A DNA stretch of 64,000 nucleotides from Streptomyces plumbidurans (GTDB taxonomy: Bacteria; Actinomycetota; Actinomycetes; Streptomycetales; Streptomycetaceae), in NCBI RefSeq assembly GCF_019857225.1, contig NZ_JAFJSY010000023.1:62001-126000 (forward strand), read 5' to 3'. Below are positions 18,936-34,806 of this stretch, in pieces. The notes beneath the pieces were generated by a model, which searched no databases, had not been told where the DNA came from, and worked only from the letters and a program-made list of their open reading frames with translations. Numbering within the stretch: the stretch's first letter is position 1; each line of letters opens with the position of its first letter. Made by a program: the position numbers and the translations under genes.

Positions 18936-19715
18936 CTACACGTCCAGGTCCACCACGACCGGCGCGTGGTCGGAGGCGCCCTTGCCCTTGCGCTCCTCGC
19001 GGTCGACGTAGGAGTCGGTGACGGCCTTCGCGAACGGTTCGTTGCCGTAGACGAGGTCGATGCGCATGCCGCGGTTCTTGGGGAAGCAGAGCTGGCGGTA
19101 GTCCCAGTACGTGAAGGGGTGGTCGTACTTGAGGGGGCGCGGGACGACGTCCGAGAGGCCTGTCTCGCGCAGGGACGTCAGGGCGGCGCGCTCGGCCGGG
19201 GTGACATGGGTGAGGCCCTCGAAGGCGGCCACGTCGTAGACGTCGTCGTCCGTCGGCGCCACGTTGTAGTCGCCCATCACCGCGAACGGGCGGCTGCCGG
19301 CCGCGTCGCCGGCGACGGCCGCCCTGAGGGCCTCGAACCACTGGAGCTTGTAGGCGTAGTGCGGGTGGTCCACCTCGCGGCCGTTGGGCACGTACACCGA
19401 CCAGACGCGGACCGGGCCGCAGGTGGCGGAGACGGCGCGAGGCTCCTGAACGCCCTCGTACCCGGGGTCGCCGGGCAGGCCCTTGACGACGTCGTCCAGG
19501 CCGACGCGGGAGAGCACCGCCACGCCGTTCCACCTGCCGGTCGCGTTCACCGCCGCCTCGTAGCCCAGCTCGCGCAGCTGGTCGAAGGGGAACTGCTCCT
19601 CGGACACTTTGGCCTCCTGGAGGCAGAGCACGTCCGTGCTGCTGCTCTCCAGCCAGGCCAGCAGCCTCGGCAGGCGGGCGGTGATCGAGTTCACGTTCCA
19701 GGTCGCGATGCGCAT
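18936..19715 (-). CDS. xth: Exodeoxyribonuclease III (AP endonuclease)
   Basis: A 259-residue EEP-fold nuclease for base-excision repair: it cuts at abasic sites and removes 3'-blocked termini. Visible motifs: MRIATWNVNSITARLPRLLA, the catalytic Glu in VLCLQEAKVSEEQFP, Tyr/Asp/Asn in FAVMGDYNVAPTDDDVYDV, and the SDHAPVVVDLDV terminus carrying the catalytic Asp-His. Full length for the family. Cytoplasmic, monomeric in relatives. Confidence 0.96.
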   Translation of the reverse strand: MRIATWNVNSITARLPRLLAWLESSSTDVLCLQEAKVSEEQFPFDQLRELGYEAAVNATGRWNGVAVLSRVGLDDVVKGLPGDPGYEGVQEPRAVSATCGPVRVWSVYVPNGREVDHPHYAYKLQWFEALRAAVAGDAAGSRPFAVMGDYNVAPTDDDVYDVAAFEGLTHVTPAERAALTSLRETGLSDVVPRPLKYDHPFTYWDYRQLCFPKNRGMRIDLVYGNEPFAKAVTDSYVDREERKGKGASDHAPVVVDLDV

Positions 19716-21744: not shown

Positions 21745-21775
21745 TCGACTCACGTTCTCATATCTCACAATTTCT
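21741..21775. other. Candidate prophage attachment-site region (pcaL/integrase junction)
   Basis: The integrase stop (TGA, 21765-21767) overlaps a GTG (21768-21766) in frame with pcaL, and host-type sequence begins immediately to the left. Tyrosine integrase genes normally lie next to attP, so the left attachment site should be here. The core length cannot be determined without the right junction, which is outside the window. Confidence 0.5.
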
Positions 21776-22958
21776 CACGCTGCTGGGTGGGGACCCCGTG
21801 CAGGCCCTCCCACGTTGCGGCGGCCCCGCGAAGATCCTCGACGTCTGGCTTCACGTAGTACTTCCGCGTCGTCTTCGGGTTCGTGTGCCCGGCCCACCTC
21901 GCCAGGATGTGCTCCGGCACCCCCTGGTTCGCCAGGTAGGTCAGGCAACTGGCCCGAGCATCGTACAAACGGACTTGGCGCATCCCGAGCTTGCCCATGA
22001 GCCGGTAGGCCGCTTTGCGCAAGTGCTTGCCGTTGAGTGCCACGCCAATCTCGTCGACAAGCACGTAGCCGGAGTCGACGTAATCGGCTCCGGCCGCGAG
22101 CTTCTCCGCGGCCTGGACCGCCCGGTACTTCCTCAGCGCCTCCCACAGCGGAGCAGGGAGCGGGAGTCCGCGGTCACTCGCCTGTGACTTGGTGTCCTTC
22201 TCGACGACGATCGAGTTGTTCATCAGCGTCCGGGTGCTGGCGACCTGCAGTGTCCGGGCGTCGAGGTCGATGTGCTCCCACCGCAGGCCGCAGACTTCCG
22301 CGGGGCGAAGCCCGAGCAGGCTGAGCAGCAGTGGTGCGTAGAAGCGCTCGTCGAGGATGCCGGCGACGAAGGTGCGGACTTCTTCCACGTTCCACGGAGG
22401 TACGTCGATCTTCGCCTTCCGCTCGGCCTTGCGGGCCTTACGCGGGATCGACACCTCGGAGGCGACGTTGATACGGACGAGCTTCTTGGTCACCGCGCGG
22501 TTGAGGAGTTCCTTCAGCCTGCCGAGCGCCATGTCCACCGTCGTCGTGGACAGCCCGGTGCCAGGGCGGTGACGGACTCGGCCTTCGGCCAGCATCCACT
22601 TGACGAAGTCCACGACCTGCTCTTCCGTGAGCTGCTGGAGCGGGATGTGGCCGAGCCGCGCGCGGACTGGCTTGAGCGTCGTCATGTAGGAGTTCATGGT
22701 CGTGACCTCGAGGTCCTCGGCCTTCAGCGCGAGCCACTGGTCGATCCACTCGTCGAGCGTGATCTTGTTGGGAACGATCAGCGTGCCGGAGTTCTTCTCG
22801 TTGACGAGCCGCGCGTACTCGGCCTTGGCTTCCTTGCGCGTGTCCTTGGTGACGGTCAGCTGCCGGCGGCCGCCGTCCGGCCTGCGCCCGATGTCCAGGA
22901 CGAACCGGTAACGCTTCTTGCCGCTCGGGAGCTTGATCTCCTTGATCGGGTCAGACAT
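21765..22958 (-). CDS. int: Tyrosine integrase
   Basis: A 397-residue site-specific recombinase: an N-terminal arm-binding region (about 1-55), a SAM-like core-binding domain (60-160, LDEWIDQWLALKAEDLEVTT), and the catalytic domain with Arg in LLGLRPAEVCGLRW, a HILARWAGHTNPKTT box and the nucleophile Tyr in RKYYVKP. The usual HxxR box appears as LYDARAS, with Tyr in place of His. I start at ATG 22958 (MSDPIKEIKLPSG) preceded by AAGGGA, not at the upstream Pro-rich extension. Its stop overlaps the pcaL frame, marking the left prophage end. Confidence 0.95.
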   Translation of the reverse strand: MSDPIKEIKLPSGKKRYRFVLDIGRRPDGGRRQLTVTKDTRKEAKAEYARLVNEKNSGTLIVPNKITLDEWIDQWLALKAEDLEVTTMNSYMTTLKPVRARLGHIPLQQLTEEQVVDFVKWMLAEGRVRHRPGTGLSTTTVDMALGRLKELLNRAVTKKLVRINVASEVSIPRKARKAERKAKIDVPPWNVEEVRTFVAGILDERFYAPLLLSLLGLRPAEVCGLRWEHIDLDARTLQVASTRTLMNNSIVVEKDTKSQASDRGLPLPAPLWEALRKYRAVQAAEKLAAGADYVDSGYVLVDEIGVALNGKHLRKAAYRLMGKLGMRQVRLYDARASCLTYLANQGVPEHILARWAGHTNPKTTRKYYVKPDVEDLRGAAATWEGLHGVPTQQREKL

Positions 22959-23344: not shown

Positions 23345-23590
23345 ATGAGCAAGCACAAGAAGGCCCCGACCCTCGACGAAGTGCGCAAGTGGCCTGCGAC
23401 GGTGAGCGTCATCGACGCAGCGTCCGCGATGGGCGTGAGCAAGACGAAGCTTTACGAGCAGGTCAGGGCCGGTTCGGCTCCGGTGCGCACGCTCCCCATC
23501 TCGGGGGTGCGGCGCGTGGTGACGGCTTCGCTGGTGCGGCTCCTGGAGACAGGTGACGCCGACCAGGCGCTGACGCCGGCCACTGGCTGA
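23345..23590 (+). CDS. xis: Excisionase-like small DNA-binding protein
   Basis: An 81-residue protein with a winged/MerR-like helix-turn-helix (VSVIDAASAMGVSKTKLYEQ) and a strand region VRTLPISGVRRVVTASLVRL. This DNA-binding module next to a tyrosine integrase is the usual arrangement for a recombination directionality factor. The start ATG has AGGGAG upstream. It is rightward, opposite to the integrase, so excision control may involve convergent or separate promoters. Function is inferred from position and fold. Confidence 0.75.
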   Translation: MSKHKKAPTLDEVRKWPATVSVIDAASAMGVSKTKLYEQVRAGSAPVRTLPISGVRRVVTASLVRLLETGDADQALTPATG

Positions 23591-23823: not shown

Positions 23824-24108
23824 GTGCCTGAGCAGGAACCCGACTGGATCGTTCTTCGTCGGCGCGCCATCGGAGAGCGGATCCGTACGGTGCGGCGTCA
23901 CCGAAAGCTGTCTCAGGAGCAGTTGGCGAACCTGATCGAGATCGATCGCCGGTCGGTGCACCGTTATGAGACGGCGCAGCGGGATCCAGCGCTGTCGATG
24001 CTGCTGAGGATGGCCGATGCGCTCGATGTGCCCGTGTCGCTCCTGGTGAGTGGATCGCTAGAGCTGGACCTGCGCAACGCCCACCGGGATGCCCGCCCGA
24101 CCCTCTGA
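23824..24108 (+). CDS. XRE-family phage repressor
   Basis: A 94-residue helix-turn-helix protein: GERIRTVRRHRKLSQEQLAN, LIEIDRRSVHRYETAQRDPA, SMLLRMADALDVPVSLLVSG. It has the DNA-binding domain plus a short acidic tail, no peptidase domain. Start is GTG at 23824; no Shine-Dalgarno sequence is visible, so the message may be leaderless or start downstream. The palindrome at 23773-23790 lies in its promoter region. Most likely the lysogeny or integrase-region repressor. Confidence 0.85.
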   Translation: MPEQEPDWIVLRRRAIGERIRTVRRHRKLSQEQLANLIEIDRRSVHRYETAQRDPALSMLLRMADALDVPVSLLVSGSLELDLRNAHRDARPTL

Positions 24109-24139: not shown

Positions 24140-24454
24140 TCAGGAAGTCTGAACGCGCTCGACGATGTGCTGGAGCCGCTCGTCGAAGACCTTCGGAGCG
24201 TCAGAGGTAAGTGAGGCCAAGGCGATCAGGGCGGTGATAGCCACGTCTGACAGTTCCTTGTGGACGTCGTCCCAGGTGTGGCTGGCACCCTTGCGGGGAT
24301 TCGCTCCCATCGCTCCGTGGACGGCCTCGGCAACCTCCCCGAACTCTTCGCCGATCTTGAGCACGCGCATCAGCTTCGCGGTGTCTCCTGTGACCGGGCT
24401 CTTCTCGTCGAGCCAGTCGACGAGGCCTTGAAGGCGCTCCCATGTTGCTTCCAT
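24140..24454 (-). CDS. MazG-like nucleotide pyrophosphohydrolase
   Basis: A 104-residue all-alpha protein with the MazG metal-binding pattern: EEFGEVAEAVHG at about 36-47 (Glu36/37/40) and KELSDVAITALIALASL with Glu67 and Asp70 for Mg2+. Family members hydrolyse (d)NTPs to the monophosphate and pyrophosphate, often aberrant or excess nucleotides. It ends the leftward seven-gene cargo operon, 32 nt downstream of the EEP-fold gene. Which nucleotide it acts on is unknown; the family call is good because both acidic motifs are intact. Confidence 0.85.
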   Translation of the reverse strand: MEATWERLQGLVDWLDEKSPVTGDTAKLMRVLKIGEEFGEVAEAVHGAMGANPRKGASHTWDDVHKELSDVAITALIALASLTSDAPKVFDERLQHIVERVQTS

Positions 24455-24486
24455 CGTGTCCTTCCTGAGGTGGGGGGTGCTGCGGG

Positions 24487-25290
24487 TCAGAACAGTGCCT
24501 TCGTGGCGACGCGTTGCGGGTCCTGCACTGGCAAGGCGCCAACCGGGACCAGGTCGAGCTGGACAGCCAGGCCGGAATGGTCTGTAAGCCGGTTCGCTGC
24601 GGTCCGTGGCTCGTGGATGTAGTAGCAGCCGCGCAGGGAGTCCGCGATGCCTGCGGACACGTGGGCGTGGTCGTAGCGGTAGCCGTCGCCGGTTCGCCCG
24701 ACCCAGGAGTACTCGGCGGCGTCGGGGTGCAGACGGCGGAAGGCGTCCTGGTAGCCGTTACGGTCCAGCCATGAGTAGAAGTCGTACTCGAAGGGCCGGA
24801 AGAACGGGTACTTGGGGTGGTGATTCGGTTCGAGGATGTTGAAGTCGCCCATCACGATCCGGTGGGTCTCCTCCTCGCCCGCGGGGATCGTATGGCGCGC
24901 CTGCTCGAGGAACCGCTTCTTGCGCTGTGTCTTGGCGGGGCTGGCATCGCGTGAAGGGACATAGAGCCCGAGAATCTCCACCGGCCCGGTCAGTGTGTTG
25001 ACTGTGGCTGCGACGGCGCGGTGTGGGAGGTACTCGAACCGGATGTCGCTCGGCGTGAGTTCGAGGCGGCTGACGATCATCACGCCGCGCTCACCGCGCT
25101 CCGGGAGCGGGAACTGGACGTGGTAGCCGGCGTCGGTGAAGTGCTGTGCCAGGTGCTGGCAGCCGGCGCTATTGGCTGTCTCTGTCAGCACGAGGACCTG
25201 TTCCGGCCGGGACGCCAGGTAGGAGAGCTGTCGCTCCGCTCGTTCCTGGGAGGGGTTGTTGAGGTTGAACGTGAGCGCATCCAGCGTCAT
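24487..25290 (-). CDS. Endonuclease/exonuclease/phosphatase-fold protein
   Basis: A 267-residue protein of the EEP superfamily (nucleases, phosphodiesterases). Active-site elements visible: Asn in LTFNLNNPSQERA, Glu37 in VLVLTETAN, Asp/Asn in RIVMGDFNILEPN, and Asp-His in NRLTDHSGLAV. Start ATG 25290 has GGAG 11 nt upstream. It overlaps the 3' end of the kinase gene by 122 bp; its N-terminal motif begins within the first ten residues, so the overlap is real rather than a wrong start. Substrate unknown; context suggests a nucleotide or nucleic acid. Confidence 0.85.
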   Translation of the reverse strand: MTLDALTFNLNNPSQERAERQLSYLASRPEQVLVLTETANSAGCQHLAQHFTDAGYHVQFPLPERGERGVMIVSRLELTPSDIRFEYLPHRAVAATVNTLTGPVEILGLYVPSRDASPAKTQRKKRFLEQARHTIPAGEEETHRIVMGDFNILEPNHHPKYPFFRPFEYDFYSWLDRNGYQDAFRRLHPDAAEYSWVGRTGDGYRYDHAHVSAGIADSLRGCYYIHEPRTAANRLTDHSGLAVQLDLVPVGALPVQDPQRVATKALF

Positions 25291-25906
25291 GAGGCTTGTT
25301 GCTCCGTAGTGCGAGGACCTCGCCCGCGATGAGGCGCGCGAGGGTGTCGGGGTCGGTGGCGGTCGCGTCCAGCTCGAGGACCTCAACGCCTTGGTCCTTG
25401 AGGAAGGTAGCGGCTTCGATGAACAGCCTGTGCTCTTTCGCGGTGCTGCCGGGTTCGCGCTCGTACCGGCTGTGAGCGCCGCGGTGGGCGAGCCTGGAGC
25501 TGATCACGTCAGGACGTGCGGTGAGGAAGACCGCGAGGTCTGGGCGGTCCGCAGCCTCGTTCATCTGCCAGACGGTGTCGCGGTCGAGGCCGTCCAGCAC
25601 CTGCAGGACGAGCGAGGAGGCGACGTAGCGGTCGCAGACGACGATCTCACCGCGCAGCATGGCCGGCCTGATCTGCTCGTCGAGGTGCTGGTAGCGGTCG
25701 GCGGCGATAAGGTGCGCCATTGCCCGGCCTCGGAAGGTGTCGGTGCCCTGGCGGGCGATTGTGCCCAGCGGCGTGTCAGTCGGCTCGCGTGTCACGCAGA
25801 CTGTGAGCCCTGAGTCCCGCAGGACTGATGCGAGAACGGCTGTCGTCGTGGACTTCCCGATACCGCCCGGTCCCTCAAGGGTGATGAGCATCCCTGAGCC
25901 GCTCAT
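25169..25906 (-). CDS. tmk: Thymidylate-kinase-like P-loop nucleotide kinase
   Basis: A 245-residue P-loop kinase: Walker A GPGGIGKST at 12-20, the DR motif in VVCDRYVASSLVLQ, and Arg-rich lid sequence near SRLAHRGAHSRYE. This matches dTMP kinase and relatives that make nucleoside diphosphates. Start ATG 25906 overlaps the TGA of the radical SAM gene (ATGA). The last 40 residues (RSNKPHDAGC...) are in the overlap with the EEP gene and look non-conserved, so the kinase domain proper ends before them. The host has its own tmk, so a specialised substrate is plausible. Confidence 0.85.
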   Translation of the reverse strand: MSGSGMLITLEGPGGIGKSTTTAVLASVLRDSGLTVCVTREPTDTPLGTIARQGTDTFRGRAMAHLIAADRYQHLDEQIRPAMLRGEIVVCDRYVASSLVLQVLDGLDRDTVWQMNEAADRPDLAVFLTARPDVISSRLAHRGAHSRYEREPGSTAKEHRLFIEAATFLKDQGVEVLELDATATDPDTLARLIAGEVLALRSNKPHDAGCAHVQPQQPLPGTSGATALLPGVPAGTGPRADRDSQ

Positions 25907-27009
25907 GAGGCAGCAATCACGGGGAGCACGCGGGACTGCGGGGGTACGACGGGGCACTGCTCGCTGTCCACGGCGCCGATGCGGTGACCGGCGGCCACCA
26001 CAGCGGCTGGGCAGCCTTTGCCGCAGCGGGAGTTCATCGAGCAGCCGCCGCACGTGTCGTTCGCGCCGACCTGCCACCGCTCGTGGAAGTCGTACGCATC
26101 CAGTCGGTCGGCGATGTTGTCGTCTTCCCACACGTTGCCGACGATGAAGTCGGTGTCGTCGTGCTGCGACACCTTCGTCCGCGCGGCGAAGACAAGGTAC
26201 GGGCAGACGGCGACCTCGCCCTGGGTGAAGACGTAGATGATCCGGCCTGCTTCGCAGTTACTCAAGGGCTTGTCGTCGTTGGGAAACCGGATGTGGACCA
26301 TGTCCAGGCCGTCGTCGACGAATGGCATGGTCAGGTCGCGGATGTGCCGCATGTGGTCGTCCGGGCGACGCAGCTTGCGCTCCGCGTTGGCGCCCCGCCC
26401 TATCGGGCCGAGCGGGTTCATCAGGACGTAGGAGGCGCCCTGGTCCCGGGCGAAGGCACAAAGCTGCGCGTATTCCTCGTCCTCGGCCAGGTTGTTCGGC
26501 GTGCACAGCAGGCCTTGCAGGATGCCGGCTTGGCCGAACTTGCGGACGGTGGCGACGGTCTCCTCGAACCCCTCAGGGCGGCCGCGGAACTTGCCGTGGG
26601 ACTCGGCGGAGAACCCGTCGAGGGAGACGTTCATGTGCACGCCGAGCCCGGCAAGGACGTCGATCTGGTGGTCGGTCACCATGGTGGCGTTGGTGCAGAT
26701 ACCGACGCCCATGCCGGCTTCGCAGAACTCGCGGGTGATCTGGATCAGGTCGGCGTGCATGAACGGCTCGCCGCCCGTAAGCGTGATGCGGTTGACGCAG
26801 GCTTCCGCGAGCTGTGGCACGAGGCGTCCGCGGACGTCGGACAGGCTCATGTAGCTCCCGCGGCGGGTTGCCGAGACGAAGCAGTGCGCGCACTTTTCGT
26901 TGCACGGCTCGCAGATCTGAATGAGGGCCTTGCGGTACGGGGGCTCGACGGACGTGCGGAAGTAGCAGGACGCCGCGGTGTCCGCGGTGATGATGGGGCG
27001 AGTGGTCAT
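25903..27009 (-). CDS. Radical SAM/SPASM-domain protein
   Basis: A 368-residue radical SAM enzyme: [4Fe-4S] Cys36, Cys40 and Cys43 in CNEKCAHC, GGEP at 79-82 for SAM binding, and a C-terminal SPASM-type cluster domain with Cys252, Cys269 and CGGCSMNSRCGKGC (320, 323, 329, 333). SPASM members often modify peptides or small molecules. It heads a translationally coupled set with a nucleotide kinase (ATGA) and is preceded by a 62-residue Cys-rich protein. The substrate could therefore be a nucleotide or that peptide. Viperin is unlikely because its motif differs and a SPASM domain is present. Confidence 0.92.
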   Translation of the reverse strand: MTTRPIITADTAASCYFRTSVEPPYRKALIQICEPCNEKCAHCFVSATRRGSYMSLSDVRGRLVPQLAEACVNRITLTGGEPFMHADLIQITREFCEAGMGVGICTNATMVTDHQIDVLAGLGVHMNVSLDGFSAESHGKFRGRPEGFEETVATVRKFGQAGILQGLLCTPNNLAEDEEYAQLCAFARDQGASYVLMNPLGPIGRGANAERKLRRPDDHMRHIRDLTMPFVDDGLDMVHIRFPNDDKPLSNCEAGRIIYVFTQGEVAVCPYLVFAARTKVSQHDDTDFIVGNVWEDDNIADRLDAYDFHERWQVGANDTCGGCSMNSRCGKGCPAAVVAAGHRIGAVDSEQCPVVPPQSRVLPVIAAS

Positions 27010-27085
27010 GTCGGTCCTCCTGGGACTGTGTGGATCCCGTCCCGCTCGTGCGTCAGGGCCGGCACGAGCGGGACGGGCGCTGATC

Positions 27086-27274
27086 TCACACAGCGGTGGG
27101 CTGCCGGTGCATGAAGAAGGTGTTCGCCTGGCGCATCAGGCGCTCGAGGCAGTCCGCGCACGCGTGGAAAGGGGCATGCTGGCCGTCCCACTGGACCGGC
27201 CCGAGGTAGATCACTGGCAGTCCGGAGCGCTCGCAGCCGAGCCAGCAAGCGCCCCTGATCCACTGCCGCTTCAT
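27086..27274 (-). CDS. 62-residue Cys-rich protein (zinc-finger or peptide substrate)
   Basis: A short protein with CWLGC near the N-terminus (Cys10, Cys14) and HACADC (Cys39, Cys42), a spacing compatible with one zinc site. Hydrophobic LPVIYLGPVQWDGQHAPF lies between. GGAAGGAG precedes the ATG at 27274, supporting translation. It lies 76 nt upstream of the radical SAM gene. It may be a structural zinc protein, an adaptor, or a substrate peptide of the radical SAM enzyme; sequence alone does not decide. Confidence 0.6.
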   Translation of the reverse strand: MKRQWIRGACWLGCERSGLPVIYLGPVQWDGQHAPFHACADCLERLMRQANTFFMHRQPTAV

Positions 27275-27298
27275 CGGAAGACTCCTTCCAAGGCAGTG

Positions 27299-27781
27299 CT
27301 AGCGGCACTCGGCCGGGTGCAGGCGTTCCAGGCCGGTGGCGATGAGGTCTCGTACGGCCTGGGGCCGGCACAGGTCGCTTTCGCGGCGGGGCGGGAGGAC
27401 CCAGTAGGGCCCGGGTGGGGCGAGTCTGTGCAGGGCGGGCACCCCGAGGTAGAAGCCATCGCCCAGGCAGGGGGCGTGGTCCTCGCGGTCCCAGACAAGG
27501 CCGGCGTGCGCCTCGATGAGTGCGTAGTAGGTGACGTCCGCTGGGGGACGGTCGCGGATCACGGCGCCGTCGAGGAGCTCGGCGAGCGCGGCTGCGACCT
27601 GTCCCGGGTCATCGGTGCCGCAGGCCGCGTGTACGAGTTCGCCCCGCAGACGGATAGCGGACAGGCGATCCCCCATCGGCAGCAGCGCGACCCCCTGGGC
27701 CTGCCACTCGGCCTCGGCCTTCCGGGGCTGGCCGTGCACCCGCGCCAGCCACTCGATGATCCGGTACGCGGGCTCGGTCAT
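27299..27781 (-). CDS. Small Streptomyces protein, related to the next gene
   Basis: A 160-residue protein with WQAQGVALLPMGDRLSAIRL, AALAELLDGAVIRD and GPYWVLPPRRES, a pattern seen in small Streptomyces proteins sometimes labelled bifunctional primase/polymerase-like, although no primase catalytic motif is visible. It is translationally coupled (ATGA at 27778-27781) to a 175-residue relative, so the two probably act together. It belongs to the leftward cargo operon ending with MazG. Function unknown. Confidence 0.65.
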   Translation of the reverse strand: MTEPAYRIIEWLARVHGQPRKAEAEWQAQGVALLPMGDRLSAIRLRGELVHAACGTDDPGQVAAALAELLDGAVIRDRPPADVTYYALIEAHAGLVWDREDHAPCLGDGFYLGVPALHRLAPPGPYWVLPPRRESDLCRPQAVRDLIATGLERLHPAECR

Positions 27782-28305
27782 TGGTCTTCTCCTTGCTGGG
27801 TTTGCCGGTACCGGCCGGCGGTGGCTACCTGGATCGCCGCGCCGGTGGGGCACAGGGCGCCGGGGCCGGCCATCGGCACGGCCCAGTAGGAGGCGTGGGC
27901 GTGCTGACTGGGGTCGGTGAGATCCGGGCGCGGCACGGAGAGCAGCGCGGAGCGACCCAGGCACTGGACGCCGGGCGGGAGCGTCTCCTGCTCGACGTCC
28001 GGCGGGACCAGGACGTAGTAGCTGTCACCGTCGGTGCTGACGAATGCGGGGCCGCCGCCGAGTGCGCTGGCCAGGTAGCGGGCAACGCCGTCCGCTTCAC
28101 TGGTGTGGGCCGCGGCGTAGATGGTGGGGGCGGGGATGGTGAGGACGGAGAAGGCGAGTCCGCAGTCCAATACGGCGATGCCGCACTTGCGCCAGTCCTC
28201 GGTGGCCTCGCCGAGATCGTGGGCTGCTGTCAGGAGCCATTCGGCAACGGCGACGTCCGTCCCGGGCACGATGCTCCCCATCCCGTCGTTCTGCGTCTCG
28301 GACAT
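27778..28305 (-). CDS. Small Streptomyces protein, paralogue of its neighbour
   Basis: A 175-residue protein sharing with the following gene the layout of a hydrophobic strand pair (WRKCGIAVLDCGLAFSVLTI), an acidic central part and a VPPDVEQETLPPG segment analogous to VLPPRRES. The start ATG at 28305 is the first gene of the leftward cargo operon, and its promoter must lie in the 156-bp gap to the divergent regulator. No catalytic motif found. The paired arrangement suggests a heteromeric accessory component of the system. Confidence 0.65.
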   Translation of the reverse strand: MSETQNDGMGSIVPGTDVAVAEWLLTAAHDLGEATEDWRKCGIAVLDCGLAFSVLTIPAPTIYAAAHTSEADGVARYLASALGGGPAFVSTDGDSYYVLVPPDVEQETLPPGVQCLGRSALLSVPRPDLTDPSQHAHASYWAVPMAGPGALCPTGAAIQVATAGRYRQTQQGEDQ

Positions 28306-28332
28306 CAGCCACTCCGCGGAGTTTCGGCTTCG

Positions 28333-28380
28333 GTACCCAACGTGACCGCCTCCCTACTACGCTCGATCGGTGGTGGGTAC
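28333..28380. promoter_or_regulatory. Inverted repeat between the divergent cargo transcripts
   Basis: GTACCCA (28333-28339) and TGGGTAC (28374-28380) are perfect 7-bp inverted repeats 34 bp apart, centred in the gap between the leftward operon and the rightward HTH regulator. A regulator binding both half-sites could control both directions. No experiment supports this. Confidence 0.45.
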
Positions 28381-28461
28381 GACCGTAGAAAGCCGAGGTC
28401 AAGCCCAGAAGTGACCCTCAGTACGGGTTACTTGGCGCTCGCCGCGAGGAGACCTGCACGC

Positions 28462-29580
28462 ATGCCTTCACGATCTTCAGGAACCCCGACCGGCAGTCAG
28501 GGTTCGTCGAATTCGCGCTCCCGTATCGGGGTGATCTCCGGCTACGTCTTCCGCATCATGCGTGAGCAGCAGGGCTACACCCAGGAAGAAACGGCGGGGC
28601 ACCTGCGTGTTTCGCCGGACACGGTCGCGGGCTGGGAGTCGGGGCGACGCTCCCTTACTGCCGTGCCGGTGGGGCAGATGCTGATGCTCCGCCACCGGTT
28701 ACTTGCGATGGGCACCACGCCGGCTCTGCTGGCCGCTTTCGAGCGTGCTCTGGAGGCGGACGTCCTGCTGACGGGGGCCCTGGAAGACGTCTACGAGCCT
28801 GAGACCGCCCCGTTGGGCTCCTGGGTCCTCCAGCGCGACCTGGTGGAGGTTCTGGCGTGGCCCCTCAACGGCGTTGCCCCCGAGCCTGTACGGGCGTTGC
28901 CTGCCCCGCCCCGGCAGCGCCGCGGGCCCGTCCCGACCGCACCGGAGCTGGCTGCCGGTGACCGCCAGACGTTCTTTGCCCGGATGCGATCGACGGCTGA
29001 ACAAGCCCGCGGCGAGGACCAGTTCCTCCTGCGCCGGCAGGCCCTGTACCTGGCCGGCTACGACGACAGTGAGGACACCCCGGACTGGCTGGCTCACCAG
29101 CAGTCCGTGCAGCGTCCGAGCGGATGGCTCACGGACTGGCTCAACAGCCGTTCCGTTGCCGCTGTCAGCGCACGGCAGGGAGACACCGACCGCATGGAGT
29201 TCTTCATCGACCGTGCGCTCACCGACGACGACGCCAGTGAGAGGGCGAACCTTGCGTACTGGGCCTACTGGCTCGGCGAGAGTCCTCACATCCAGCTCTC
29301 CGACGACTTCATCGCCTCGGCCGCGCTGGGCTCCTGGCACGGCGAGAAGCTCCTGAACCATCTCGCCGCAGGCTTCAAGGCGGAGCACGGCTTCGTCGCG
29401 CTGAACATCCACAGCGTCTGGTCGCTGCTCACGGTCCGGCCTCAACTGCTGCGGTCCGGTGCAGCAAGCAGGGCACTTCGCGACAGGCTCCCCGTGATGT
29501 TGGATAGCCGGGAGTTGTCGGCGCGGGCGCGCCGGGAGCTCGAAGGTATCCGGTACGCGATCCGCCTCAATGAGGCGTGA
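28462..29580 (+). CDS. Helix-turn-helix regulator with a large C-terminal helical domain
   Basis: A 372-residue regulator: an XRE-type HTH at about 25-80 (RIMREQQGYTQEETAGHLRV, SPDTVAGWESGRRSLTAVPV), then a ~280-residue helical domain with a Trp-rich stretch (YWAYWLGESPHIQL) and no catalytic motif. ATG 28462 has GAGGAG 9 nt upstream; the longer frame upstream is discarded. It is divergent from the seven-gene operon and 12 nt before an HD-domain gene. Such HTH plus large-domain proteins often sense a metabolite and control adjacent islands. Ligand unknown. Confidence 0.82.
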   Translation: MPSRSSGTPTGSQGSSNSRSRIGVISGYVFRIMREQQGYTQEETAGHLRVSPDTVAGWESGRRSLTAVPVGQMLMLRHRLLAMGTTPALLAAFERALEADVLLTGALEDVYEPETAPLGSWVLQRDLVEVLAWPLNGVAPEPVRALPAPPRQRRGPVPTAPELAAGDRQTFFARMRSTAEQARGEDQFLLRRQALYLAGYDDSEDTPDWLAHQQSVQRPSGWLTDWLNSRSVAAVSARQGDTDRMEFFIDRALTDDDASERANLAYWAYWLGESPHIQLSDDFIASAALGSWHGEKLLNHLAAGFKAEHGFVALNIHSVWSLLTVRPQLLRSGAASRALRDRLPVMLDSRELSARARRELEGIRYAIRLNEA

Positions 29581-29592
29581 GAGGAGACCACA

Positions 29593-30180
29593 GTGGCTGA
29601 TGAGGGCCTGCCTGCGGTAGCACGGTTTCTGTACGAGGCGGGGACCTTGAAGGCGGCGAAGCGCACCGGTTGGTGGATGGCCGGCGTGCGTGACCCCGAG
29701 TCCGTGGCTGAGCACTCCTGGCGTACTGCGCTGATCGCTTCCATCATCGCCAAGCTCGAGGGCGCCGACCCGGCGCGGGCCGCTTTCCTCGCTGTCTGGC
29801 ACGACTCGCAGGAGACGCGCACCGGCGACGTCAATCACCTGGGGAAGAAGTACACGCAGGGCGAGGTCGATCCGCGTGCCATCACTGCCGACCAGGTCGC
29901 CGGGTTTCCCCAGGAGTTGGCCCAGGCCGTCGTCGAGGTCGTTGCCGAGTACGAGGAGCAAGAGTCCCCGGAGGCTGTCTGTGCACGGGATGCGGACAAG
30001 CTGGAGTGCATGATTCAGGGCGTCGAGTACAGGTCGCAGGGCTACGGGAATGCGCAGCGGTGGATCGACAACAGCCGCGGGCGGATCGTGACCAAGAGCG
30101 GCCAGCAGCTGGCCGACGCGGTGCTGGCGTCAGGCTCGCTGGACTGGCTGCGCGCGGCGCTCGGTGAGGGCGGCGCGTAG
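29593..30180 (+). CDS. HD-domain phosphohydrolase (5'-nucleotidase-like)
   Basis: A 195-residue HD-superfamily metal hydrolase of the HDDC2/YfbR type, whose members dephosphorylate deoxyribonucleoside monophosphates. Metal ligands are in order: His41 (VAEHSWRTALIA), His70-Asp71 (VWHDSQETRTGD) and Asp in CARDADKLECM. Start GTG 29593 with GAGGAG upstream, 12 nt after the regulator stop, so co-transcribed. It adds a dNMP-cleaving activity to an island that also contains a nucleotide kinase and a pyrophosphohydrolase. Substrate identity is inferred from the family. Confidence 0.88.
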   Translation: MADEGLPAVARFLYEAGTLKAAKRTGWWMAGVRDPESVAEHSWRTALIASIIAKLEGADPARAAFLAVWHDSQETRTGDVNHLGKKYTQGEVDPRAITADQVAGFPQELAQAVVEVVAEYEEQESPEAVCARDADKLECMIQGVEYRSQGYGNAQRWIDNSRGRIVTKSGQQLADAVLASGSLDWLRAALGEGGA

Positions 30181-34157: not shown

Positions 34158-34284
34158 GGAATCTCCTGAAACGTGTGAAGGCCTTCTGCGGGCCGGGCCG
34201 GATGCGTGCAGGCGAGATCGATGGCGGGACAGCACGGGGGGGGCCGCTGAGGGTTGCTGTCAGAGCCGCCAAGGGTCGGCAGCC

Positions 34285-34307
34285 CCGCAGCCCTTGGAGG
34301 GCTGCGG
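34285..34307. terminator. Perfect 10-bp hairpin in the tail-lysis gap
   Basis: CCGCAGCCCT (34285-34294) and AGGGCTGCGG (34298-34307) form a perfect stem with a TGG loop, followed by a second GC hairpin near 34,310. The gap 34,158-34,806 holds no gene and lies between tail and lysis genes, so a processing or attenuation role is plausible. Confidence 0.5.
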
Positions 34308-34593
34308 CGCCCCGCCGGGGCAGCGCGGCGCCGTCGGCGGCTTGAGGCCCTGGGGGGGTTGCAACAACTTGAAGCGTGGCTGGGGCTAGTTGTGGTGCTG
34401 GAGACACACGCGCGCCTGCTTGGTCGGCTACGGGCTTCGTCGTGGCTGGCTTTCGGTGGCTGAGGTCGAAGGGCCGGAGGAGTCTGCGCGGCTTGTTTGG
34501 ATGGGGGTGGCTGAGCCCGGTGAACAGTCGCGCGCGTGGTGAGGCTGGTGATCCAGGTTCAGACAGTGGGGGTTGCTGAGCCACGTACTAGTG

Positions 34594-34767
34594 CGGAACC
34601 CCCGGCGGGAACGGGTTCCGGAACCCGTTCTGGAACGGGTTCCGGGTCTGTCACGGTCTCGGAACCCGTCGCGGAACGGGTTCCGGAACCCCCGGCGGGA
34701 ACGGGTTCCGGATGGCTCGGAACCCCCGGCGGGAACGGGTTCCGGAACCCGTTCCAGAACGGGTTCC
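34594..34767. repeat. Palindromic repeat array in the tail-lysis intergenic region
   Basis: Three identical 29-bp copies at 34594-34622, 34684-34712 and 34718-34746 (core GGAACCCCCGGCGGG followed by AACGGGTTCCGGA). Between and after them two hairpins have GGAACCCGTTC arms pairing with GAACGGGTTCC, at 34620-34643 (spacer TG) and 34744-34767 (spacer CA). Nested inverted repeats are dense, and no gene is supported here. Confidence 0.85.
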
Positions 34768-34806
34768 GGGCATCCCGCCCGTGGCCGATGCGACTGGCGG
34801 CAGCTG

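Follow-up and report, generated by a model that had tools for sequence, protein, structure and literature searches.

A conserved four-gene radical SAM and thymidylate-kinase-like cassette in a Streptomyces prophage, with two sister cassettes, as candidates for the synthesis of modified nucleotides

A prophage of Streptomyces plumbidurans, analysed here in a 64,000-nucleotide stretch of contig NZ_JAFJSY010000023.1 (positions 62,001 to 126,000; hereafter the window), carries a conserved four-gene unit encoding a radical SAM/SPASM enzyme, a thymidylate-kinase-like (TMPK-like) protein, an endonuclease/exonuclease/phosphatase (EEP) protein resembling exonuclease III (ExoIII) and a MazG-like pyrophosphohydrolase. 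This unit, termed type A, was found on chromosomes, plasmids and viral contigs, and the same kinase family occurs in two sister cassettes, types B and C, whose radical SAM enzymes are unrelated to it and to each other. Judged from the kinds of genes present, the four-gene core would be a mobile unit for producing a modified (deoxy)nucleotide and for protecting its carrier from it, a reading to which a probability of about 0.62 is given. An earlier sequence-only reading of this DNA had guessed at either a modified-nucleotide pathway or a prophage-encoded defence, and both guesses survive, the first as the preferred interpretation and the second as a less probable rival.

Results and Discussion

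The four core genes lie on the reverse strand of the window, in a host genome of 8.64 Mb. The radical SAM/SPASM enzyme (core gene 1; 368 aa; 25903..27009) matches Pfam Radical_SAM above its cut-off (6e-22), and is followed by the TMPK-like P-loop kinase (core gene 2; 245 aa; 25169..25906; Pfam Thymidylate_kin, 3.7e-30), the ExoIII-like EEP (core gene 3; 267 aa; 24487..25290; Exo_endo_phos, 1.8e-10) and the MazG-like protein (core gene 4; 104 aa; 24140..24454). The radical SAM and kinase genes share an ATGA overlap, the kinase frame extends 122 nt into the EEP gene, as it also does in several relatives, and a gap of 32 nt separates the EEP and MazG-like genes.

Relatives of the radical SAM enzyme were found at 11 loci in named genomes, ten of them with 62–82% identity and the eleventh (L016) with 24%, in two viral contigs, and on plasmids, where two of 168 matching records exceeded 60% identity. 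Nine of 295 Streptomyces genomes, the host included, carry the type A enzyme, and one genome of another class (1/346 besides the host) has the radical SAM, kinase and EEP genes with transposase-like open reading frames (ORFs) upstream on a cut contig. Altogether the type A set comprises 22 distinct loci, three of which (L012, L017 and L049) end inside the cassette. The four genes are recognisable in the same order and on the same strand in all 19 uncut loci (19/19), which come from Streptomyces, Embleya, Actinacidiphila, plasmids and viral contigs, counting one in which the start of the radical SAM gene is cut (L035) and three damaged copies (L014, L015 and L019). The conserved unit is therefore these four genes, and for them the earlier reading of a prophage-carried set is supported, with conservation as a unit outside this phage.

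Damage to the three copies takes different forms, with deletions in L014, a frame change and a kinase–EEP remnant in L015, and the loss of a cluster cysteine and kinase motif residues in L019. Decay of several copies is usual for dispensable, mobile genes. At L040:5656-6172 an EEP fragment and a MazG-like gene stand among other chromosomal genes, probably as the remnant of a lost cassette.

Searching the 295 genomes with the EEP gave 16 genomes at 1e-20, ten of them at about 1e-90 or better; nine of these ten are the radical SAM genomes, and the tenth (G028) has EEP and MazG genes without a radical SAM or TMPK gene alongside. More distant EEPs with 35–38% identity (G142, G266 and G025) were set aside as they belong to another gene set. 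The MazG-like family is not specific, because relatives occur in 203 of the 295 genomes at 1e-8, and it was rejected as an anchor for the system on this ground and on finding MazG without the cassette at all five loci that were inspected for MazG alone (L042, L043, L044, L046 and L047).

The radical SAM enzyme contains the motif CNEKCAHC and a SPASM domain, both as first read from the sequence. Its CX3CX2C cysteines (C36, C40 and C43) are invariant in 16/16 rows of alignment A3 and present in 17/18 rows of alignment A1, the exception being L019, which has Tyr for C43. Read against the SPASM consensus, the enzyme has a full seven-cysteine pattern (C252-X11-G264-X4-C269, C320-X2-C323-X5-C329-X3-C333, C352), also invariant in A3. 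The earlier judgement that this is not a viperin holds, and viperin identity was rejected, on this pattern and on a score of 51.4 bits against the cut-off of 180 for the viperin family NF038283; the match to the PADLOC viperin model pVip is distant (61 bits, 2.7e-17). The parallel once drawn with the viperin–CMPK2 pair stands as a likeness of logic, without viperin membership: prokaryotic viperins (PADLOC pVip; NF038283) likewise place a radical SAM enzyme beside a P-loop nucleotide kinase and give a nucleotide product, but the window has EEP and MazG genes in addition. The ddhNTPs of viperins, which are made from CTP, UTP or GTP, stop phage DNA synthesis.

Scores against other characterised families were likewise below cut-off, at 93 bits (cut-off 265) for the mycofactocin maturase MftC (TIGR03962) and 80.3 bits (cut-off 400) for BlsE (TIGR04466). 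By profile, the solved structure nearest to the window enzyme is nonetheless that of the cytosylglucuronate decarboxylase BlsE (PDB 7vob/7voc; 77.6 bits, residues 25-166), which has other gene partners and acts on a nucleoside (PMC3715490). SkfB came second (70 bits), and AbmM (8wm2; 4'-thionucleoside) and viperins were also among the PDB matches. A structure search with a predicted model placed SuiB first by Z, tied with BlsE, the latter with 24% identity over 270 aligned residues.

SPASM enzymes commonly act on peptides, and the high ranks of SkfB and SuiB would agree with a pathway for a ribosomally synthesised and post-translationally modified peptide (RiPP), in which the substrate of the enzyme would be a small peptide, for example the 62-aa Cys-rich protein encoded at 27086..27274 on the same strand. 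This accessory gene is directly upstream of the radical SAM gene in the window and in several relatives. However, its relatives, which are not always adjacent, occur in just 10 of 21 type A loci, the window included (other short ORFs were not systematically searched), the constant partners are instead the kinase, the EEP nuclease and the MazG-like protein, and gene calling, whose scope does not extend to shorter ORFs, gave no small gene common to the type B and C cores. The RiPP explanation is disfavoured by the patchy occurrence of the Cys-rich protein and is considered very improbable.

The kinase scores 112.7 bits against dTMP kinase (TIGR00041; cut-off 83.25) and keeps the P-loop and the DRY motif, with the signature DRYxxSxLVxQ; its match to PADLOC is distant (PDC-M51B, 1.5e-10). 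It departs from dTMP kinases at one position, where Leu replaces the Tyr of the host's own enzyme, and throughout the family the aromatic residue of dTMP kinases gives way to Leu (24), Met (8) or Val (5), as seen in all of the 37 rows, out of 38 aligned, that have this column. This is the AYQ-motif column, in which both the Pseudomonas dTMP kinase (Tyr107) and the host housekeeping enzyme have Tyr, and the aromatic side chain presumably sits near C2' of the sugar. The residue is listed among inhibitor contacts in PMC3619541.

Membership of the EEP family is clear for the third protein (Exo_endo_phos 41.4 bits, cut-off 24.5), which resembles exodeoxyribonuclease III (xth, TIGR00633; 3.6e-19) at 69.3 bits, below the cut-off of 99.05. 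It has LTET, GDxN, YRYDH and DHS motifs, and the motifs searched are kept in 19/20 members, the damaged L015 lacking one. Beyond a variable linker, the type A EEPs end in a C-terminal Leu-Phe in 19/20 cases, L012 being cut (window 24487-24510), which looks like a short docking motif. The MazG-like protein falls short of the PF03819 cut-off (19.1 against 22 bits; E 0.0017) and has the motif EEFGEVAEA...KELSDV; by pattern search EExGExxEA and a KELxD-type motif are present in 20/22 MazG-like proteins of the set, and one relative is annotated as MazG-like in the records. The nucleotide- or nucleic-acid-acting folds that had been assigned to these proteins are supported, with Radical_SAM, Thymidylate_kin, Exo_endo_phos and the HD_3 of a neighbouring gene above their Pfam cut-offs and MazG below. 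At L030:10723-11085 a second, diverged MazG-like gene without the usual motif lies directly upstream of the radical SAM gene.

The kinase also leads to cassettes of other composition. A TMPK search of the 295 genomes at 1e-22 gave 29 loci in 28 genomes, nine of type A (53–62% identity, plus the window itself) and twenty relatives at 40–49% identity, and reading of the latter separated 14 type B from 6 type C loci. Type B consists of an AlkA-like glycosylase, a B12-binding radical SAM enzyme and the TMPK, then a NUDIX protein (12 loci) or MazG (2), and type C of another radical SAM enzyme, an RNase_T/DnaQ-like exonuclease and the TMPK, with an aldo/keto reductase in four of the 6 loci. One kinase family is thus combined with three mutually unrelated radical SAM enzymes. 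Pfam matches in one member each support B12-binding with Radical_SAM, NUDIX, RNase_T, Aldo_ket_red and Thymidylate_kin; the type C radical SAM protein is below the Pfam cut-off, with CX3CX2C invariant in 9 rows. Pfam gave no match for the type B glycosylase, but a search of the PDB with its profile gave nine sequences at E up to 0.1, all of them 3-methyladenine DNA glycosylases (best 2.8e-4).

A radical SAM gene lies in the same-strand gene run of the kinase in 27 of the 29 loci (9 type A, 13 type B and 5 type C; the exceptions are L068 and L071), counting genes that are incomplete as called in L058 (contig end), L066 (short), L075 and L076 (in pieces) and L035 (start cut). A DNA-removing enzyme is also present in 26 of these 27 (9 EEP, 12 glycosylase and 5 exonuclease), and the remaining locus, L058, ends at the contig end. 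In a tree of 37 kinase sequences, types A (17), B (14) and C (6) each fall on one side of one branch, so that 2 changes, the minimum, account for their distribution, with support of 93/93 for A and 98 or more for B and C. Types in the tree were assigned from neighbouring genes, L068 being counted as C and L071 as B without a radical SAM gene, and L014, L015, L019 and L049 were left out. The branching order of the three types is uncertain, because long branches join B and C.

Like type A, the sister cassettes are found on mobile elements. The plasmid kinase search (1e-25) gave 15 records, two of type A and thirteen others that are the same thirteen recovered with the type B radical SAM enzyme; some of these are near copies and one has only 36% of the protein. 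Type B was found 8 times in viral contigs, beside or near an integrase in L078-L081. The layout in L079-L081 (a gene with a match to part of the endolysin cluster, divergent regulators, cassette, excisionase-like gene, one ORF, integrase) is close to that of the window read backwards; L079 and L080 look like one phage. The integrases of these type B viral contigs are only about 24–30% identical to those of the window or of L006, a related prophage, over the matched part, and different phages therefore carry alternative cassettes in a comparable position.

Searches for the type C radical SAM enzyme gave 3 viral contigs and 25 plasmid records, spread over Streptomyces, Nocardia, several Hyphomicrobiales, Gluconobacter and Nostoc. 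Ten of the plasmid regions were read, and in these the enzyme is followed by a 3'-5' exonuclease and a small protein that the records call AAA ATPase or hypothetical, which is AAA_28 in the three tested, one of them below cut-off; a scan of six of the ten regions gave no TMPK match. On three Streptomyces plasmids (L092, L095 and L099) thymidylate synthase and nucleoside diphosphate kinase (NDK) genes lie directly upstream in one run with the genes for the radical SAM enzyme, the 3'-5' exonuclease and a small P-loop protein, a combination that makes up a near-complete route to a deoxynucleoside triphosphate (dNTP). An HD protein is encoded downstream in four of six alphaproteobacterial type C plasmid loci.

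By record annotation, the neighbours of type C in six rhizobial and alphaproteobacterial plasmid regions are CBASS-like genes, an anti-phage dGTPase with TIR, Shedu with ABC-3C, ABC-3C with VapC, an N6 methylase and VapBC. Such surroundings would fit a strict anti-phage defence, in which infection would trigger the production or release of the modified nucleotide and phage DNA synthesis would be halted by it, through the same chemistry as proposed here for the cassette in general. Type A is accessory and mobile (9/295 genomes, prophages, plasmids and decayed copies) and type B fills a comparable prophage position, both of which are in keeping with this use. On the other hand, no sensor or infection trigger was identified, and PADLOC matches at 1e-15 were few among 150 proteins encoded near type A cassettes, with no control set scanned: 11 models were matched, mad3 by 2 members and five LmuB models, four HamC2 models and a subtilase model by 1 member each. 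By Pfam, the commonest domains in the same neighbours were HTH_31 (8), Acetyltransf_1 (6) and HATPase_c_2 (5). The 150 were taken from 166 listed proteins after removal of the nine from L008, three outer proteins from each of L014 and L032, and one from L034; the list excluded proteins below 110 aa or more than 7 kb away, the core, sm (see below) and Cys-rich proteins, and the loci L006, L007, L012, L017, L035 and the window. PADLOC contains no close model of the cassettes, the type B and C proteins tested being distant or unmatched except for the exonuclease (DEDDh, 8e-28). Use as a strict defence is a serious possibility, held at somewhat below even odds.

Proceeding from the observed gene content, motifs, co-inheritance and three parallel types, a mechanism can be proposed for type A; what is acted on, what is made, whether it is toxic and which way each step runs are inferred. 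The radical SAM/SPASM enzyme would alter a nucleoside or nucleotide, and the TMPK-like kinase, with Leu, Met or Val at the aromatic position, would phosphorylate the product towards the triphosphate. The product may then poison DNA synthesis via incorporation or chain termination. Protection of the host would come from the ExoIII-like nuclease, which would clear the product from 3' ends of host DNA, and from hydrolysis of stray triphosphate by the MazG-like enzyme. In a prophage, the result could be harm to competing phages or neighbouring bacteria. Extending this to the sister types, a glycosylase paired with the B12 enzyme would suggest an altered base, and exonucleases paired with the other two radical SAM enzymes an altered sugar or blocked 3' end. 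It is suggested only tentatively, with the balance tilted against it, that the three types form a superfamily of mobile radical SAM and TMPK-like cassettes in which three unrelated radical SAM enzymes each supply a different altered nucleotide to one kinase family, with immunity from a lesion-matched repair enzyme and a pyrophosphatase, and which prophages, plasmids and defence islands use against rival phages.

The proposed chemical logic already has a published example in thmABC of Photorhabdus, where three genes for a radical SAM enzyme, a kinase and an NTPase suffice in E. coli for 4'-thiothymidine, which enters DNA and hinders replication, and the NTPase alone confers resistance (PMC12691670). 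In its kinds of genes, thmABC resembles type A as a small mobile cassette of radical SAM enzyme, kinase and nucleotide hydrolase with a product that enters DNA and a hydrolase giving self-resistance. It differs in that its kinase is AbmG-like, and not stated to be TMPK-like, that it is reported from gamma-proteobacteria, and that no DNA nuclease or glycosylase is described in the sections covered here. That an antibiotic results from three such genes, whose surroundings differ between species (PMC12691670), also favours another use of the same chemistry, namely a nucleoside antibiotic released against other bacteria and carried by phages and plasmids as a fitness gene. The Streptomyces host and the upstream helix-turn-helix (HTH) regulators with tetratricopeptide repeat (TPR) and HATPase partners would suit this explanation as well. 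The core is without a transporter, however, and copies lie in prophage position and near rhizobial defence genes; release as an antibiotic is regarded as possible but less likely than not.

Several points weigh against the cassette as a maker of a modified nucleotide. The radical SAM model is poor (pLDDT 58.5), and the structural search made with it failed to distinguish enzymes acting on peptides from those acting on nucleotides; by score, peptide and cofactor enzymes place no lower than nucleotide ones (MftC 93, StsB 89 and BlsE 80 bits), and SkfB and SuiB, which came second in the PDB and first by Z, are likewise of that kind. The 27 loci joining kinase and radical SAM genes are not 27 independent events, because some are near copies. 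A nucleotide pyrophosphatase is present in types A and B (MazG, NUDIX) and absent from most type C loci, so that adjacent, co-inherited radical SAM, kinase and nucleotide hydrolase genes were found for A and B and not for C. Given how widespread its family is, the MazG-like protein could be a late recruit to the cassette. No exporter is part of the core, which therefore fits poorly with a secreted antibiotic, and PADLOC gave little defence signal around type A, which also speaks against its being part of a defence island.

The operon is real and lies within a genuine prophage, as PHROGs matches in the window include integrase, endolysin, tape measure and portal proteins, with a weak match to excisionase. 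It sits between the integration and lysis genes, beside the integrase (21765..22958, reverse; phrog_1, 4.2e-64) that flanks the cassette and away from the structural genes. Between the two are an excisionase-like gene (23345..23590, forward; phrog_66, E 0.0037) and a gene for a small HTH protein (23824..24108, forward; HTH_31, 3.5e-13), of which a 70% identical copy occurs in the related prophage L006. This is the only type A locus to have its prophage genes in common with the window (integrase 73%, excisionase 74%). Inspection of 18-64 kb of the window showed no convincing att repeats. Of 50,697 phage records, 6 were matched by the radical SAM enzyme, none above 26% identity, and the match of the prophage structural genes to phage records was limited to a short tape-measure stretch. 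Pattern scans of the viral_contigs set confirmed no relative of the integrase, such scans being prone to miss relatives, and none of the HTH regulator described below, yet a scan with its HD partner brought five contigs with 65–72% relatives; the misses count little, because the HTH scan missed these five contigs. The prophage also contains a tRNA-Pro gene (TGG; window 34263-34344), followed by an array of G+C-rich imperfect repeats with a spacing of 24-41 nt (window 34594-34770). Beyond the integrase and two genes away, a 259-aa ORF (window 18936-19715) shares 31% identity with part of the EEP of the cassette, and is probably a host EEP/ExoIII-type gene.

TMPK, MazG and HD proteins occur in phages, also as PHROG families, and the genes could do no more than increase the supply of dNTPs or modify bases of phage DNA; the presence of thymidylate synthase and NDK at some type C loci would agree with such a role in phage nucleotide metabolism. 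The host already has its own dTMP kinase, however, the cassettes also occur on chromosomes and plasmids, and the operon lies away from the structural genes, which together make this explanation unlikely.

All nine genes of the operon and its divergent neighbours, as originally read with their overlaps and short gaps, are confirmed, seven leftward (24140-28305) against two rightward (28462-30180). The remaining leftward genes encode the accessory small proteins sm2 (27299..27781; family A4) and sm1 (27778..28305), which overlap by 4 nt and are homologous at about 26% identity. Together with the Cys-rich protein, they have no firm match in Pfam or NCBIfam. The AlphaFold2 model of sm1 (pLDDT 88.6) is similar to Prim-Pol domains, a similarity that is weak in Foldseek (best E 0.047) and consistent in VIA-align, where they fill the first 13 rows (Z 6.5-3.8), and the family probably has a reduced Prim-Pol fold of the archaeo-eukaryotic primase (AEP) type. 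Relatives are present in 9/21 type A loci, the window included, and the family recurs with several HTH regulators, also in the type B locus L071.

The rightward pair consists of an HTH regulator (28462..29580, with a start at 28462 or 28531; HTH_31, 9.4e-8, above the Pfam cut-off) and, after 12 nt, an HD_3/YfbR-like phosphohydrolase (29593..30180; HD_3, 8.1e-28; phrog_7076 dATP triphosphohydrolase, 6.4e-9). This pair was found with other cargo in 5 viral contigs, and was not seen in the regions retrieved around the remaining 20 type A loci; other type A loci have HTH regulators, of which some are TPR-like, accompanied by a GNAT or flavoprotein partner, and also small HATPase proteins. The pair and the small proteins are separable from the core. 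The proposal of a single seven- or nine-gene system is rejected on these grounds and on the partial occurrence of the small and Cys-rich proteins, and the predicted co-occurrence holds for the radical SAM, TMPK, EEP and MazG genes but not for HD and HTH, found with them in the window alone among the regions retrieved. The oxetanocin A pair OxsB/OxsA, a B12 radical SAM enzyme with an HD phosphohydrolase that acts on a deoxynucleotide, recalls the type B radical SAM enzyme and an HD partner; the window enzyme differs in being a SPASM protein that is not B12-dependent, and its HD protein is outside the conserved core. At L050:861-6579 the same HTH-HD pair faces another radical SAM gene (372 aa), a 67-aa peptide with a Cys-containing end and a GNAT-like protein, possibly a RiPP cluster under the same regulator.

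Conclusion

Neither a three-type family with DNA-removing partners nor the radical SAM–TMPK–EEP–MazG set was found in the open-licence literature searched, which is weak evidence of novelty. From one odd prophage operon the analysis arrives at a class that is open to testing, that of small mobile cassettes for different altered DNA building blocks, in which the repair enzyme of each cassette may reveal its alteration. If true, this would offer a chemical route to competition among phages or bacteria, further nucleoside analogues and, built into the cassettes, a key that links each lesion to its repair enzyme.

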